Assembly (NCBI GenBank): GCA_024228495.1
Contig: JAAETJ010000279.1
Location: 1-63,690 of the forward strand
Reading direction: 5' to 3'
DNA: 63,690 bases
Source: a bacterium
Lineage (GTDB): Bacteria > Pseudomonadota > Alphaproteobacteria > Rhizobiales > JAKIUO01
Each line of letters starts with the position of its first letter. Position 1 is the stretch's first letter. Under the pieces are notes generated by a model. It was not told the origin of the DNA, did not search any database, and saw only the letters and a list, made by a program, of their open reading frames with translations. The translations under genes and the position numbers were made by a program. This document shows positions 17,547 to 24,270 of the stretch, piece by piece.

Positions 17547-17588
17547 GGCACCTGCGGGGCTCAAATGAGCCTTGTCAGGTGCTTTTTT
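17547..17588 (+). terminator. Intrinsic terminator after the DUF547 gene
   Basis: A long stem (GCACCTG ... CAGGTGC with an inner GGCTC/GAGCC) is followed by six T residues at 17583-17588. It ends the DUF547 transcript and separates it from the secreted-protein genes downstream. Confidence 0.85.
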
Positions 17589-17715: not shown

Positions 17716-17913
17716 GTGAAAGAAAACCGTGTAGACCTTCAGGTAGAAGTGAATAAATATAACAGTATTCTGAAAGTCTATGATACGGTCAAATCAGAAA
17801 TTTGCGAGATAACAATAGAAAATATTCTGTTTTCTGATCCAAAGCAAAACCAGCTGGAATTCTTTCACATCGGTTGTTATCTCATTAAAAATTCAAAGGA
17901 GATGTCAGTATGA
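17716..17913 (+). CDS. Small leader ORF, 65 residues, unknown
   Basis: A GTG-started frame (AAGGGAC 8-14 bases upstream) encoding a 65-residue soluble, charged protein with no family I recognise (ends HIGCYLIKNSKEMSV). Its TGA overlaps the ATG of the next gene (ATGA), so if translated it would couple translation of the secreted beta-propeller-like protein. It is AT-richer than its neighbours. It could be a real small protein, a leader peptide, or chance. Confidence 0.4.
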   Translation: MKENRVDLQVEVNKYNSILKVYDTVKSEICEITIENILFSDPKQNQLEFFHIGCYLIKNSKEMSV

Positions 17914-19943
17914 ACTCACAACTTAAAACAGTTCACACGAGGTCGTCAAACTCACCTGCATCACGCAAGGTGGATTTATTACGTTCAGCAAGTTTCGCCG
18001 CCCTCCTTTGCTTCTCCTCCACTGTCCTCATAAGCCCGGCCTTCGCGCAAGGTGGCATTTTGGACGGTATGAAAGGCCTGTTTGGCAGCGATGTCACATC
18101 AACAAATGGTCCCTTGATGAAGCCAGGTAATATTGCGGTCACCGGTTTTTCCGGCATCTCTTTTCCCCAAGAAGGCCTCCCTCCAGGCGTCAATCCACTC
18201 GATGAAACATTCATTAATCTCAACGGCAAGACCTTGCGGATTTTCAACGTGCGGGTCGCAGGCGAAGCGCCCAAAGGGCAGCTTGTTAATACCCCTCTCC
18301 CGTTTGAAGTCGAAGCGCGAAAAATCGGCCAAGTATTTGGCCTTGCTTACGATATTGGCACCCTCATTGAAGGTCGCACAGATGGCAAGCGCACCGTGCC
18401 AAATCTTTATGTCACTGCCGCTACCATGCACGGCTTGCAGGTCGTTGTCCCAGATAGTGATGGCGATGGCCGCCCTGAGCGCATCAAAACCGGTACTCCT
18501 GGCGCCACCTTCATGGACGGCCAGCACGGTCTTGATCTTGGCGGTGGTCCCGGCAGCATCTATAAAATAAACGGCGTCACTGGAGAGGTCAGCCTGTTTG
18601 CCAATGTGCAACTGGATGGCGTTGAAAATGCGGGTGCCGGTCTTGGCAATATCGCCTTTGACCAAACCCATCAGCAATTATTTGTCTCTGATCTTGATAC
18701 CGGTATGATCCACCGTTTTGACATGCAAGGCATCGATCTTGGCACGTTTGACCATGGTGTCAATGGACGCCCCAAAAACGGTTTTGACGTGGTCCCTCAT
18801 GACCCCGCCAATCGTATGGATATTGCCAGCCCAACCTTTAACGTAGAAGATCCAGAAACCTGGGGCTTCACCTCCACCATGCGCCGCGTGCACGGTCTCG
18901 CAGTCAAAGGCAATCGTTTGTTTTACGCGGTGTTTGAAGGCCTGCAAGTCTGGTCCATCGGTATCAACCATGACGGCAGCTTCAGGGATGACGCGCGCTG
19001 GGAACTGGATGTCCAATCAGATAGCGACCACCCTGTCACCGATATTGTGTTCGACCGCAAAGGATTCTTGTATCTGGCCCAGCGAGGCCACGTCAAAAAC
19101 ACCTATGATTATTCAAAGTTCGCTGCCCCCGCTAAGTCGCAAGTTGTTCGCTACCACCGTGAAAGCCCTGATGATCCAGCTACTCCCTCTGTCTGGATCG
19201 AAACCCCGGCGGAATATGCTGTTGGTTTTCCGGAAGGAAACCGCATGACGCTTGGCGGTATCGACCTTGGTTATGGCTTTGATGAATTGGGCAATATCAA
19301 CCCGCGCGTTTGCGATGGCACACTTGGTAAAACCGGCGACAATCTGCGCGACAACCCGGCACTTGCCGATCAGCTTGCAGCGAACGGACCGTTCAATGTG
19401 CATGGCTTCCAGCTGACTTCCAAACATCTGGTGCGGCCCCAAAACATGCCACCCTTCAATAGCTATTTGGTTGATTATGACGGCACCTTTGAGGACCCCG
19501 AAGTACGCGGTCATGTCGGTGATATCGAAATCTGGAACCCGTGCCGTGGTGGCCGTTCTTATGGTTGGGGCGATATAATCCCCTATCCAGATCCACTCCC
19601 CGACCCGACCCCAAAATGCGCCAATGTTGAATGGATCGAATATCTTTGTAATCCAGGCGGCGTCGAGGCTTCTATCTGGCTAAAAGACAATACCGGTCTT
19701 GGCTTCGATAGTCTGAAAACACAATCGGCGACCCCAGGTGTTTCAGTGTTTCCGCCGATGCAGAAAAGAGCCTCGGCGCTTGATCCATTCTGGTTGGATT
19801 TCGTAGGAGCAGGATCTGGTCAAAAGATCAATCTCAATCTGTGCCTCTACAAGGAGGCCGACGCGGCCATCCCCGGCAAGACCTTCCCGTGTTGCAAGCT
19901 GCAATTGCCGCTTAAAACACCCACCAATATTTGTGCTCCATAG
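17910..19943 (+). CDS. Secreted beta-propeller-like protein with a C-terminal Cys domain
   Basis: A 677-residue protein. After a polar stretch of about 24 residues, a hydrophobic signal segment (SASFAALLCFSSTVLISPAF) ends at AFAQ. Repeated strand blades with N/D-rich turns (GLGNIAFDQTHQQLFVSDLD, HGLAVKGNRLFYAVFEGLQV, DIVFDRKGFLYLAQRGHV) point to a beta-propeller of NHL or SMP-30 style. PDSDGDGRPER looks like a calcium loop. The last 110 residues form a Cys-containing module (CANVEWIEYLC ... TPGVSVFPP ... CCKLQLP ... C) that recurs in the next protein, seven bases downstream. The pair is probably exported and works together at the cell surface; this is inference. No homologue with known function is recognised. 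Confidence 0.65.
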   Translation: MNSQLKTVHTRSSNSPASRKVDLLRSASFAALLCFSSTVLISPAFAQGGILDGMKGLFGSDVTSTNGPLMKPGNIAVTGFSGISFPQEGLPPGVNPLDETFINLNGKTLRIFNVRVAGEAPKGQLVNTPLPFEVEARKIGQVFGLAYDIGTLIEGRTDGKRTVPNLYVTAATMHGLQVVVPDSDGDGRPERIKTGTPGATFMDGQHGLDLGGGPGSIYKINGVTGEVSLFANVQLDGVENAGAGLGNIAFDQTHQQLFVSDLDTGMIHRFDMQGIDLGTFDHGVNGRPKNGFDVVPHDPANRMDIASPTFNVEDPETWGFTSTMRRVHGLAVKGNRLFYAVFEGLQVWSIGINHDGSFRDDARWELDVQSDSDHPVTDIVFDRKGFLYLAQRGHVKNTYDYSKFAAPAKSQVVRYHRESPDDPATPSVWIETPAEYAVGFPEGNRMTLGGIDLGYGFDELGNINPRVCDGTLGKTGDNLRDNPALADQLAANGPFNVHGFQLTSKHLVRPQNMPPFNSYLVDYDGTFEDPEVRGHVGDIEIWNPCRGGRSYGWGDIIPYPDPLPDPTPKCANVEWIEYLCNPGGVEASIWLKDNTGLGFDSLKTQSATPGVSVFPPMQKRASALDPFWLDFVGAGSGQKINLNLCLYKEADAAIPGKTFPCCKLQLPLKTPTNICAP

Positions 19944-19949
19944 GAGGAA

Positions 19950-22900
19950 ATGATGACGCATACACAAAATTCCTCCGTCGCGACTCACAGGTCCCCGGCC
20001 CACCGCAAACACCCATTTTCGGAGACGATTATGAAACCCCTGACCTCAATCAAGCAGAACGCTTTCTTGTTGCTCGCAATATTATTCTTGCAATTCGCGT
20101 CGGGCTTTATAGCGCCGGCCAACGCCTTCAATGCCAAATTCTATAAATCTGGTCATCAGACCGACTGCGATTATGTCGAATACAAGCTGACCTACAACAA
20201 GCCGTTTTTTGGCTGGCTGGATGAAGGGTCACAAGACACAATCGTGAGTGAGGCCATCAGAATAAGAGATGTTTTGCCCGAAGGCCTGTCCATTCAAAGC
20301 GCCACCATTGCAGGCGACGTGACCGGTCCAGGCGGCGGCTTGATGCTGGCCCCGGAAATCAAGACAACAAATCACGCCAACGACACGCTGGTCTGGAAAA
20401 AACTTCATTTGTCGAAAACGGACCTGGACGGTTTGGGAAATGCTGATGATCGGCAATTCACCATTACCATTCTCGCCAAAATCGATAAAAGCAAATTCCT
20501 CGCCCCCAAAATGGTTTCCAATCAGGCCAAGGCTTCTGGCCCGGCGACCGTGTTTTCTCATGATCTGGCGCTTCCTGAAGATGGCGACCCTGTCAATGGC
20601 GAACCAACGCTAATCTTGATCGATGTCAGTGATTGTCCAGATGATACTGGCAGCGGTGACCCCATAGGCGAGGCCTGCTTCAAGGTGGAACATGGCGAAA
20701 TCGAATGTGATCCCAAGGGTGCTGGTGTATTCATCTACAAGATGAATATCGGCCCTGAATATGGCGGCAAGGTTATTGAGCTTGTCTCAACGACCCCCGG
20801 CGTTTCCATCTTTCCGCCCTCACAGATTGTACCTGCTGGCGGCGGCGTGCTCGCATGGACCATCCATGGAGCCGTGCCTGGTATGAGCGTACATCTCGTG
20901 GCCAATGGCCTGACCGATGGTGATGTCAAGCATGTGGCTGGTCCAAAAGACGGGCTTGGTTTGTGCTGCGTTCAAAAAATTATCATTGTAATCCCCGTGG
21001 ATATTGATTGTCCTCCTCCTCTCCCTCTGCTTTGTGAAAACGGTGATGAGGGCTGCCTGCCGCCGTCGCCTCCCCCTCCTCCTTGCGATCCAGAGTGGGA
21101 AGACTGCCTTTGTGATCCAAAGGTCGAAAAATGTGATCCACCAGAAAATAAAAAGCCTAAGCTGCAGCTGGACAAAAGGGTCATCAATGATTGGTGCCTG
21201 CCAAATGGCGATGGAACTGCGACCTGTAACTACACAATCCGCATCTGGAATGCTGGCGCTGCCCCGTTCAACGGTCCTGTGACCGTGCGCGACCGCTATC
21301 CAAATGGTGCACCGATCAGCTCGACCTTCAACCCGGTTCCCCCTTGGGTCTGTGGTCCAGATGGCGCAGCAGACAAATTTGTCTGCACGGGAAATGTCAA
21401 CCTGCCGCCGTTCGCGGTAACTTCCCTGACAGTAAACGCCATCGTCTCGATTGCCGGCTATCCAAGCCGCGAGGTAGAGAATTGCGCCATGCTGAAAGAA
21501 CAGGCTGGTCAACCAAAAAGCTGCGCTATTGCTAAATTACCGGTTACAGATCCTAAACAACCCAATCTAAAGCTTACCAAAAACTGTAAGCCCGCTGAAA
21601 CCTTGACGGCTACGGATGGGTCTGGAGTTGTATGTAAAATTACCGTCACCAATAATGGAGCTGCTGCTGCTTTTGGTCCGATTTCGATCAATGATGTTAC
21701 AACCCTTGTTGGTGGTGGAGACGGTGCGATCACCATAGATAGTGTCTCAACTGATACCCCTGCAGCTGACTGGACCTGTTCAGCCGTGCCTGCCGACAAT
21801 CTTAACTGTTCCATTGATGGCACAAATGTTGGTCCCGGTGTGTCGCGCTCTTTCGTGCTGACTTTCAGCAATATCGAGTTGTCTCAACAGCGCTACAAGA
21901 ACTGTGTTAAAGGGCTCGTGTCAGGCGGAGGTGATGTTCATACTTTTGACAGCGTCTGTGTTGAAGGCGGGGCAGATCCTGCCGGACCAAAACCTGGTGA
22001 AGATCCCAATGACATCTCCGTTGAAAAAACAGGTGATAGCATTTGTGATTCGAAAAACCCTTGTCACTTCGAGATCACACTCAAAAATGGAAACAATAAG
22101 GACTTCAGTGGCAAGCTGGCTATTATTGACGGCATTACCGATACCAATGGTGGTCTTGTTGCTGGTGCCGCCATTAGTGTCAGCCCCCCGTTTGGATGTG
22201 CGCTCGAACCAACCAGCCTACCATTTGGCTGTGTCGCCGATGTCACGCTTGGAGCAGGTCAAAGCCGCACGCACAAAGTGATTGTCATGCTACCCCAGAA
22301 TGACAATAACACTCCAACAGACGCATCAGTGCCGCTGTCATCACAAAACGGTATGCGCAACTGCGTATTGATCGGCGAAGCCGGTATACTAAGTGCTGAT
22401 ATTGGTGATACTCTTGAAGGAGCTGGATCAGCGCAGGCCAATGAGGGATCTCCTCGCTATGCCTGTCATGATTTCAATACAAAAGAGCCCCGGCAATGCA
22501 CGAGTGGCATGGTGCTCAACAAGACTGGCAAGTGCCAGTGTCCATCTGGCACCCGTTGGAACGGTCGTCGCTGCTTTGGTGATGTCCCACCAATCCGTAT
22601 CACTGATCCAATTCCACCAATAACCGGCAAAGATCCTGTCTGCCCGCGTGGAATGAATCATTTTCGTAGCTTCAAGGGCAAGCCTCTGGGGTATGCCTTA
22701 AGGAACGTGCGCTCCAATGGTCACACAATCATTTGCGGCGAACCTCGTTGCGACCGTGGATGGTCTCTCTATCACCATCGCTCGACGATCCCGCGCGGCT
22801 GGACCAAGAAACAGATCGGTCGCCCTAATAGCAAGTACAAGTTCTGGTGTGCCAAAGCGGCCAAAAAACCATCGCTGCAGTGTTGGAATGATCGCTGGAC

Positions 22901-24191
22901 GCAGATCTCATCAAGCCAGATACATAATTTCCGTGCAAAACGCTATACCGTGAAACCACGTAGCAAGAACGGTCAAACCATCTGGTGTGCGAAACCTGGC
23001 AAAACACCACCCGTCCAATGCTGGAGTGGCTGGAAACAGATTAATGACAACCAAATCCGCTCTTATGAGAAAAACGGATATGACGTCAAACCTCGCGGAA
23101 CAAAAGGTAAAAATCAAATCTGGTGTGCCAAGCATCCAATACGCGCTCCTCTGGAATGCTGGAGCGGTTGGACGAAGGTATGGCTTGGTGAAATCGCCGC
23201 TTACAAACACAAAGGCTATGACACCAAAAGTCGAGGCAGGGGCAAGCGGAGAATCTGGTGTGTCAAACCAGGGAAACCACAACGCTGCGTTCCCGGTCCC
23301 AACGAGTATCGCAACAAACAAAACCAGTGTGTTTGCAAGCGCAACTATCACCGCGGTTCGTCGGGCATCTGCTTGAAGAATTTCACGGCGCCCCAAACGT
23401 GCGATAAACCGTGGAAGCAAATCATGCCTGGTCAAATCAAGTCCTTCAAAAACAAGGGCTGGAAGATCAAACATCTTGGCGGCAGTGGTGTTGTTCCTGT
23501 AATTTGTACCAAGCCCGGTACGAAACAGTGCAAAGCCAACGAGCAGATGACAAGCCGTGGCTGTTTGTGCAAGCGTGGCTATCAGCGCGATAAATATCGC
23601 CGCTGCGTAAAAAAGCCAACCAATCACACACTCAATTGCCGCAAGGGTTGGAGCAAGGTGCCGGGCACACGGGTCAACCACTTCAAGAAAAAAGGCTATA
23701 GCATCCAGTCTCGTGGCAAAGGCAAGCGCCGGATCTGGTGCGTCAAGCCAGGTAATAAACCGACCGGACCAACCATCAGTTGTTCTGGTGGTGGCAAGCC
23801 AATGCGCACATCGAGTTCGGTCAAAGCACAATGGTATTGCAGCTGTCCAACTGGCAAAAAGGCGGTCAAAGCTGGCAAGAGCCACTATCGCTGCGTCAAC
23901 AAAACGGTGCCGCAAACCTGCGCCAAAGGTCAGACCAAGGTGACATCGAGTAAAGCCTATCGCCGCTACAAAAAACTCGGCTGGACCCTTAAGCGCAAGA
24001 AAGGCTACTGGTGTGGCAGGCGTCCAATTATCATTCAGTCTTGCACAAAGCTCGGCAAAATCGGGAAATGGCCGAAGTGCTACAACAAGCCGATAATCAA
24101 CTACAAGCCGAAAATAACCTGCGAGAGCATTGGCAAGGTAGGGAAATGGCCAAAATGCTACCCGCTGAAAAAGCCTTCAATTCTATTTTGA
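19950..24191 (+). CDS. Giant secreted Cys-rich repeat protein with DUF11-like domains
   Basis: 1413 residues from ATG 19950; ATG 19953 is better spaced from AGGAGG. A third start, ATG 20031 with its own GGAG, gives a textbook signal peptide ending NA at residue 59, so the true start is open. The layout has a beta domain at 60-225, then at 240-355 the Cys module shared with the upstream protein (TPGVSIFPPSQ, CCVQ). A Pro/Cys linker reaches about 400, and three DUF11-like domains span roughly 400-530, 535-690 and 690-840. The strongly basic tail (895-1413) has seven units of about 38 residues, each opening C-x2-x-x-W or similar and closing IWC-x-K-P. Small Cys knots lie between them, and two G-K-W-P-K-C-Y units end the protein. 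It is probably a disulfide-bonded surface or matrix protein. Confidence 0.7.
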   Translation: MMTHTQNSSVATHRSPAHRKHPFSETIMKPLTSIKQNAFLLLAILFLQFASGFIAPANAFNAKFYKSGHQTDCDYVEYKLTYNKPFFGWLDEGSQDTIVSEAIRIRDVLPEGLSIQSATIAGDVTGPGGGLMLAPEIKTTNHANDTLVWKKLHLSKTDLDGLGNADDRQFTITILAKIDKSKFLAPKMVSNQAKASGPATVFSHDLALPEDGDPVNGEPTLILIDVSDCPDDTGSGDPIGEACFKVEHGEIECDPKGAGVFIYKMNIGPEYGGKVIELVSTTPGVSIFPPSQIVPAGGGVLAWTIHGAVPGMSVHLVANGLTDGDVKHVAGPKDGLGLCCVQKIIIVIPVDIDCPPPLPLLCENGDEGCLPPSPPPPPCDPEWEDCLCDPKVEKCDPPENKKPKLQLDKRVINDWCLPNGDGTATCNYTIRIWNAGAAPFNGPVTVRDRYPNGAPISSTFNPVPPWVCGPDGAADKFVCTGNVNLPPFAVTSLTVNAIVSIAGYPSREVENCAMLKEQAGQPKSCAIAKLPVTDPKQPNLKLTKNCKPAETLTATDGSGVVCKITVTNNGAAAAFGPISINDVTTLVGGGDGAITIDSVSTDTPAADWTCSAVPADNLNCSIDGTNVGPGVSRSFVLTFSNIELSQQRYKNCVKGLVSGGGDVHTFDSVCVEGGADPAGPKPGEDPNDISVEKTGDSICDSKNPCHFEITLKNGNNKDFSGKLAIIDGITDTNGGLVAGAAISVSPPFGCALEPTSLPFGCVADVTLGAGQSRTHKVIVMLPQNDNNTPTDASVPLSSQNGMRNCVLIGEAGILSADIGDTLEGAGSAQANEGSPRYACHDFNTKEPRQCTSGMVLNKTGKCQCPSGTRWNGRRCFGDVPPIRITDPIPPITGKDPVCPRGMNHFRSFKGKPLGYALRNVRSNGHTIICGEPRCDRGWSLYHHRSTIPRGWTKKQIGRPNSKYKFWCAKAAKKPSLQCWNDRWTQISSSQIHNFRAKRYTVKPRSKNGQTIWCAKPGKTPPVQCWSGWKQINDNQIRSYEKNGYDVKPRGTKGKNQIWCAKHPIRAPLECWSGWTKVWLGEIAAYKHKGYDTKSRGRGKRRIWCVKPGKPQRCVPGPNEYRNKQNQCVCKRNYHRGSSGICLKNFTAPQTCDKPWKQIMPGQIKSFKNKGWKIKHLGGSGVVPVICTKPGTKQCKANEQMTSRGCLCKRGYQRDKYRRCVKKPTNHTLNCRKGWSKVPGTRVNHFKKKGYSIQSRGKGKRRIWCVKPGNKPTGPTISCSGGGKPMRTSSSVKAQWYCSCPTGKKAVKAGKSHYRCVNKTVPQTCAKGQTKVTSSKAYRRYKKLGWTLKRKKGYWCGRRPIIIQSCTKLGKIGKWPKCYNKPIINYKPKITCESIGKVGKWPKCYPLKKPSILF

Positions 24192-24237: not shown

Positions 24238-24270
24238 AAAAATGGCCCTCCTGGTGAGGGCCATTTTTTT
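24238..24270. terminator. Bidirectional intrinsic terminator
   Basis: A perfect stem AAATGGCCCTC / GAGGGCCATTT with a five-base loop, T-run on the plus strand and A-run before the stem. It lies between the convergent giant surface-protein gene and plsC and can serve both. Confidence 0.85.

Follow-up and report, generated by a model that had tools for sequence, protein, structure and literature searches.

A homologous cysteine module pair in two adjacent genes points to a probable two-chain surface structure of the fibrillar-adhesin type

Do two adjacent genes for putatively exported proteins, one resembling a propeller and the other ending in a long cysteine-rich repeat tail, encode two parts of a single structure? 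An initial annotation had proposed such a pair for the window, by which we mean the whole 63,690-nt stretch analyzed, and the open reading frame (ORF) calls place both genes, P1 and P2, on the forward strand with 6 bases between the P1 stop and the P2 start. Judged by eye, each protein has an N-terminal hydrophobic stretch and an A-x-A site. For P2 an alternative start is equally possible, namely a further in-frame ATG at 20031 that has a GGAG of its own, and by alignment the segment before 20031 is partly similar among relatives. The locus is laid out as follows.

17548..17582, forward strand: terminator-like hairpin following the DUF547 gene upstream of the block (RNA fold -27.1 kcal/mol, z -6.3)
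17716..17913, forward strand: 66-codon open frame overlapping the P1 start, kept in relatives, without codon-position bias
17910..19943, forward strand: P1, putative head protein, 677 aa (ORF; third-position bias against the relative L065; adjoins P2)
19950..24191, forward strand: P2, putative stalk and tail protein, 1413 aa (ORF; its relatives lie directly downstream of P1)
24238..24268, forward strand: terminator-like hairpin, usable on both strands (RNA fold z -4.2; pattern scan)

The terminators proposed on either side of the block are borne out by these two hairpins in the fold calculations; the pattern scan lists the downstream hairpin and omits the upstream one, and with 9 sites in all it shows no excess over the 8.8 found in shuffles. 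The frame at 17716-17913 has a purine-rich, ribosome-site-like start and a stop that overlaps the P1 start, and it is open in three close relatives. It was rejected as a third gene because codon-position bias is absent: changes at the three codon positions were 13/8/12, 12/12/15, and 20/16/19 against three relatives, as compared with 46/34/225 for P1 against L065. The lack of bias suggests that the frame is probably a leader, not a protein gene; it may act as a leader or as a translational-coupling element. Conserved pathway neighbors were not detected: at E 1e-20 the upstream DUF547 protein was seen again in 4/80 loci and the downstream acyltransferase in 1/80, with some of these loci ending early at contig ends. 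A plasmid location was considered and set aside, the search having given a single distant match with 28.5% identity across 61% of P1.

In 80/80 named loci, P2 follows P1 immediately and in this order. These loci are the best 80 of 355 matches and so favor full-length P1; genera among the named matches include Mesorhizobium, Aminobacter, Nitratireductor, and Methyloligella. A less biased sample is provided by 199 genomes of the order, where DUF7929, a domain of P2, was detected in 16 genomes (6 genera) and the propeller in 66. In each of the 16, a propeller gene immediately precedes the DUF7929 gene on the same strand, but 50 of the 66 propeller genomes lack DUF7929. The expectation that each gene would always accompany the other therefore holds in one direction, P2, as marked by DUF7929, never being found apart from the propeller in this sample, and fails in the other. 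Of 240 genomes drawn from the class, one, that of the window, has DUF7929 and 5 have the propeller. Taken as comparative evidence, this distribution supports the P1-P2 partnership well.

The propeller also occurs in proteins that join the corresponding parts in a single chain. We fetched 31 of these, a subset of those that the searches found, and 26 have DUF11-like matches behind the propeller; most of the propeller-DUF11 relatives end in a Cys-rich or basic region, giving the order of parts seen across P1 and P2. Two such one-chain proteins, L050 (1896 aa) and L051 (1668 aa), are encoded in the window's own genome. That one chain in relatives holds the parts split over two genes here is a classical sign of functional linkage, and the matching parts in matching order favor the partnership and the surface fiber that the initial annotation had suggested. 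The set is varied: L146 and L147 combine the propeller with a Cys-rich tail without a DUF11-like match, the Cys-rich tail is replaced in L060 and L061 by long Cys-free basic tandem repeats, and four proteins (L054, L059, L151, and L152) have slightly acidic ends. The one-chain protein L053 (289-4269) has a stalk that matches P2 557-969 and a propeller, matched over a short length, that falls near the split group in a quick tree; it is possibly a late re-fusion. On that tree of chosen rows (20 split and 32 one-chain), the switch between split and one-chain forms takes 3 changes, 2 of them forced by starred branches, and is unpolarized.

The propeller makes up most of P1.

18111..19562, forward strand: six-bladed beta-propeller, P1 68-551 (profile, AlphaFold model, fold matches with Z up to 24.5)

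The AlphaFold model of P1, built with 42 aligned sequences, has a mean pLDDT of 75.3 and a pTM of 0.78, and its best fold matches are nidogen (1npe; Z 24.5, rmsd 2.7, 257 residues) and LRP6 (3s94; Z 24.4). As modeled, P1 has the YWTD/NHL-type six-bladed fold, in agreement with the propeller first proposed. The P1 sequence gave no Pfam match above cut-off, no NCBIfam match, and no PDB match of weight. Because these searches found no propeller sequence relative of known function, adhesion is put here as likely only. Across the propellers of split and one-chain proteins, R325 and E365 are kept in 52/52, and D281, H282, R392, and W429 each in 51/52. Since this polar set is kept across both architectures, the head probably has a binding or active site. 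Calcium binding, which the initial annotation had proposed, was set aside, D182 of the DxDxDG loop being kept in just 34/52 propellers. The net charge of P1, excluding the first 46 residues, is -23. In two near relatives the P1 frame is broken, in L044 (10534-12615) by a stop between propeller and module and in L043 (4825-6794) near the N-terminus, and either may be an assembly error. The P1 proteins of L148 and L149 are equal in length and profile score; their genomes are filed in different families and one of the two is 10% contaminated, so we read the likeness as transfer or contamination.

P2 begins with a series of domains that includes the following.

20130..20633, forward strand: DUF7929 (PF25551), isopeptide-type, P2 61-228 (Pfam E 3.1e-36; triad K66/D107/N191)
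21018..21134, forward strand: Pro/Cys linker, P2 357-395 (alignment; many relatives have an extra DUF11 there)
21135..21548, forward strand: DUF11 domain 1, P2 396-533 (triad K409/D448/N511)
21549..21989, forward strand: DUF11 domain 2, P2 534-680 (triad K544/D582/N651; 9IFR match, Z 12.5)
21990..22499, forward strand: DUF11 domain 3, P2 681-850 (triad K693/D727/N804)

The DUF7929 match scores 125.2 bits against a cut-off of 27, and the DUF11 (PF01345) match passes narrowly, with 25.4 bits against 24.6. The DUF11-like domains expected in P2 are thus present, and the statement that neither protein has a recognizable family is wrong for P2, which has domains of the DUF7929 and DUF11 isopeptide-domain families. 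Passages of Costa et al. 2025 (PMC12617251) include DUF7929 in a list of families with a predicted intramolecular isopeptide bond (reference residues Lys86, the catalytic Asp129, and Asn213) and report the DUF11 bond as demonstrated by crystallography in one domain; they also describe DUF11 in adhesin stalks and isopeptide domains from surface stalks.

The corresponding triads of P2 are strongly conserved. That of DUF7929 is present in 31/31 aligned rows, with the reference spacing of 43/84 in 22/31 rows and 41/84 in the window's P2; that of DUF11 domain 1 is present in 31/31 rows, that of domain 2 in 27, 27, and 26 rows (every row having the position), and that of domain 3 in 30/30 rows having the position. 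No other lysine in P2 60-885 is fully conserved (0/41). The triad positions were picked partly from conserved columns, so the computed conservation probabilities are inflated in their favor. Alignment A3 contains an L064 row with a misread start, trimmed in A5. The model of P2 60-1108, from 31 sequences, has a pLDDT of 75.9 and a pTM of 0.30, so its domain folds are usable and their mutual arrangement is not. The best fold match is to the crystal structure of a CLIPPER (DUF11) domain (9IFR; Z 12.5, rmsd 2.8, 119 residues, P2 535-676); for the DUF7929 part, Sgo0707 and the pilin BcpA were retrieved with Z 10.9. P2 also resembles integrin leg domains (Z 11-12), so the fold match by itself is no proof of an adhesin stalk. 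With DUF7929 and three DUF11 domains, P2 contains the tandem beta-sandwich domains of a stalk, and the triads conserved in all four let it be read as a covalently locked stalk, the bonds being predicted.

Behind the stalk lies the tail.

22605..24188, forward strand: basic Cys/Trp-rich repeat tail, P2 886-1413 (five ~40-aa units, two GKWPKC units)

The basic Cys/Trp tail of some 500 residues seen at the outset measures 528 residues, with 32 Cys, 22 Trp, and a net charge of +106. Three of its units are modeled as small strand-helix-strand-strand domains (block pLDDT 73-88). Over the last 300 residues of 72 complete relatives the net charge is positive in all (+10 to +81, median +17.5), with a median of 28 Cys and 0 Trp; given these medians, a strongly basic Trp-rich tail is not general among relatives. 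Neither the tail repeats nor the Cys module has a row of its own in the fold-search lists, which is no evidence of a new fold since both sit inside long models. PG_binding_1 was found above cut-off in 12 of 36 proteins scanned (10/29 one-chain and 2/7 P2-type proteins, the latter L145 and L164), which suggests that these relatives are attached to the cell wall. No PG_binding_1 was seen in the window's P2 or in those of Mesorhizobium ciceri (L117) and a member of the Hyphomicrobiales (L072). We considered whether PG_binding_1 trades off against tail charge and set the idea aside, as the rows do not clearly show such a relation. No surface anchor or sorting signal was recognized in the window's P2 by Pfam scan, nor was a secretion system or other route across the outer membrane. 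That the basic tail binds acidic polysaccharide, as first suggested, is a guess.

P1 and P2 also share a module.

19578..19940, forward strand: P1-type Cys module (6 Cys), P1 557-677 (homology to the P2 module)
20655..21017, forward strand: P2-type Cys module, P2 236-356 (homology to the P1 module; profile; module tree)

Comparison by hhalign shows P1 556-677 and P2 235-358 to be homologs (probability 97.6, E 3.9e-12), and the module gave no match to DUF7929, the DUF11 domains, or the propeller. Using a profile built from both module types, we detected the module in 14 of 121 genomes of the order, 4 of 240 of the class, and 7 of 299 of the phylum, which make 21 distinct genomes since the samples overlap. 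Of the 21, 20 carry exactly two copies, which lie in neighboring genes on the same strand, each in its own open frame, with a spacing of roughly 1-3 kb or less; the exception, G336, has a single copy beside a contig end. All 49 listed matches (repeats between samples included) lie in neighboring pairs, G336 again excepted. By profile search both the module and DUF7929 are absent from 31/31 one-chain proteins, a set in which contig ends truncate three members (L049, L144, and L150) and one (L059) is interrupted.

In a tree of 45 module rows from chosen loci, some identical and several on flagged long branches, one branch with support 100/99 splits the P1-type (23 rows) from the P2-type (22 rows), which indicates that the duplication predates all sampled pairs. 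The two kinds differ in cysteine content: 6 Cys in 93 of 95 P1-type modules, two P1 rows being fragments, and 5 Cys in 81 of 93 P2-type modules, counts that come from redundant loci. An intermolecular disulfide as the joint was set aside, since the counts show two module kinds and not a bond. The module pair is kept in two class-level relatives, L149 (3-3482) and L165 (1328-5020), whose P2 gives no DUF7929 match and has different domains ahead of the module; a weak von Willebrand A match in L149 falls short of the Pfam cut-off. The P1 counterpart in L164 (338-2862) is a 153-aa protein with a signal-peptide-like start and a P1-type module, without a propeller, and its neighbor is a P2-like protein of 706 aa that carries PG_binding_1 and Cys-rich repeats. 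As far as these sequences tell, the module pair outlasts the other parts of the system. Docking of the two proteins through their shared Cys modules, as proposed, thus gains comparative support from homology, pairing, and the tree. That the P1-type and P2-type modules form a heterotypic docking pair arisen by one duplication, with swappable head and stalk genes and a joint that is maybe covalent, is an idea we hold tentatively, at somewhat less than even chances.

On balance we favor the view that P1 and P2 form a two-chain cell-surface structure of the fibrillar-adhesin type, its head and stalk joined by the module pair. P1 would be the exported head, a six-bladed propeller whose conserved polar residues probably form a ligand site. 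P2 would provide the stalk, four CnaA-like domains in each of which the triad is expected to close an intramolecular isopeptide bond, so that these bonds and disulfides together would stiffen it, and its basic Cys-rich repeat tail would be the foot, probably attaching P2 to the envelope. The module that ends P1 would meet its homolog near the N-terminus of P2, restoring the head-stalk-tail order of the one-chain relatives. The propeller, which had been thought to organize the fiber, looks instead like the head of a stalk.

The conserved polar residues of the propeller are compatible with an enzyme too, and P2 could simply display a catalytic propeller of DFPase-, lactonase-, or phytase-like fold. 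The fold matches of P1 do include phytase (1poo, Z 21.0) and DFPase (3li3, Z 20.4), but the best of them are YWTD propellers from binding proteins, candidate tunnel positions are variable (D378 in 43/52 propellers, H498 in 33/52), and no enzyme family was matched in Pfam, NCBIfam, or the PDB; we regard a surface enzyme as unlikely. The pair might also be bound to peptidoglycan in the periplasm and stabilize the envelope without adhesion, which would suit the PG_binding_1 domains of relatives, two split proteins included, and the lack of a recognized outer-membrane secretion system. The window's P2, L117, and L072 have no such domain, however, and isopeptide domains are known from surface stalks in the passages cited above, and an envelope-internal scaffold seems to us improbable.

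A reading with no complex at all takes the two exported proteins to share an ordinary Ig-like module through duplication. Adjacency by itself may stem from co-regulation, and the modules are only ~25% identical, yet an ordinary module would have to be reconciled with its confinement to neighboring pairs, save the one copy at a contig end, and with its absence from every one-chain protein; we give this reading very little credence. If the two-chain structure is accepted, the pair found in Mesorhizobium, Aminobacter, Nitratireductor, and relatives gains a testable function and DUF7929 a genetic context. The structure would represent a proposed new route for the assembly of adhesin-like fibers, and the homologous module pair could serve as a natural protein-coupling tool.

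Isopeptide-type stalk domains are already known, and the unusual, new part is the homologous paired module, for which we found no earlier report in searches of open-licence PMC papers; nor did we find there a paper linking DUF11 and a propeller, or DUF11 proteins, with Mesorhizobium. The closest likeness is to fibrillar adhesins with CLIPPER (DUF11) stalks, which, in passages of PMC12617251, share with P2 tandem CnaA-like domains, triads, disulfides, and great length in exported proteins. Here, by contrast, head and stalk are separate chains bearing a homologous module pair, the head is a propeller, and no sorting motif was recognized. The stalk places the system with surface proteins of the fibrillar-adhesin type; since head and stalk are not on one polypeptide, it is best called a two-chain variant of a fibrillar adhesin. 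The one-chain propeller-DUF11-tail proteins of the order (such as L050, L052, and L056) have the same propeller family and order of parts, but they are single polypeptides without the Cys module and DUF7929. The YWTD/NHL propellers of nidogen and LRP6 share the fold of P1 and are extracellular binding domains, with no detectable sequence relation. In the cohesin-dockerin system, of which the Pfam scan of P1 and P2 matched neither domain by name, modules on separate chains likewise assemble an extracellular complex. Cohesin and dockerin have unrelated folds, whereas the modules of P1 and P2 are homologs of each other.
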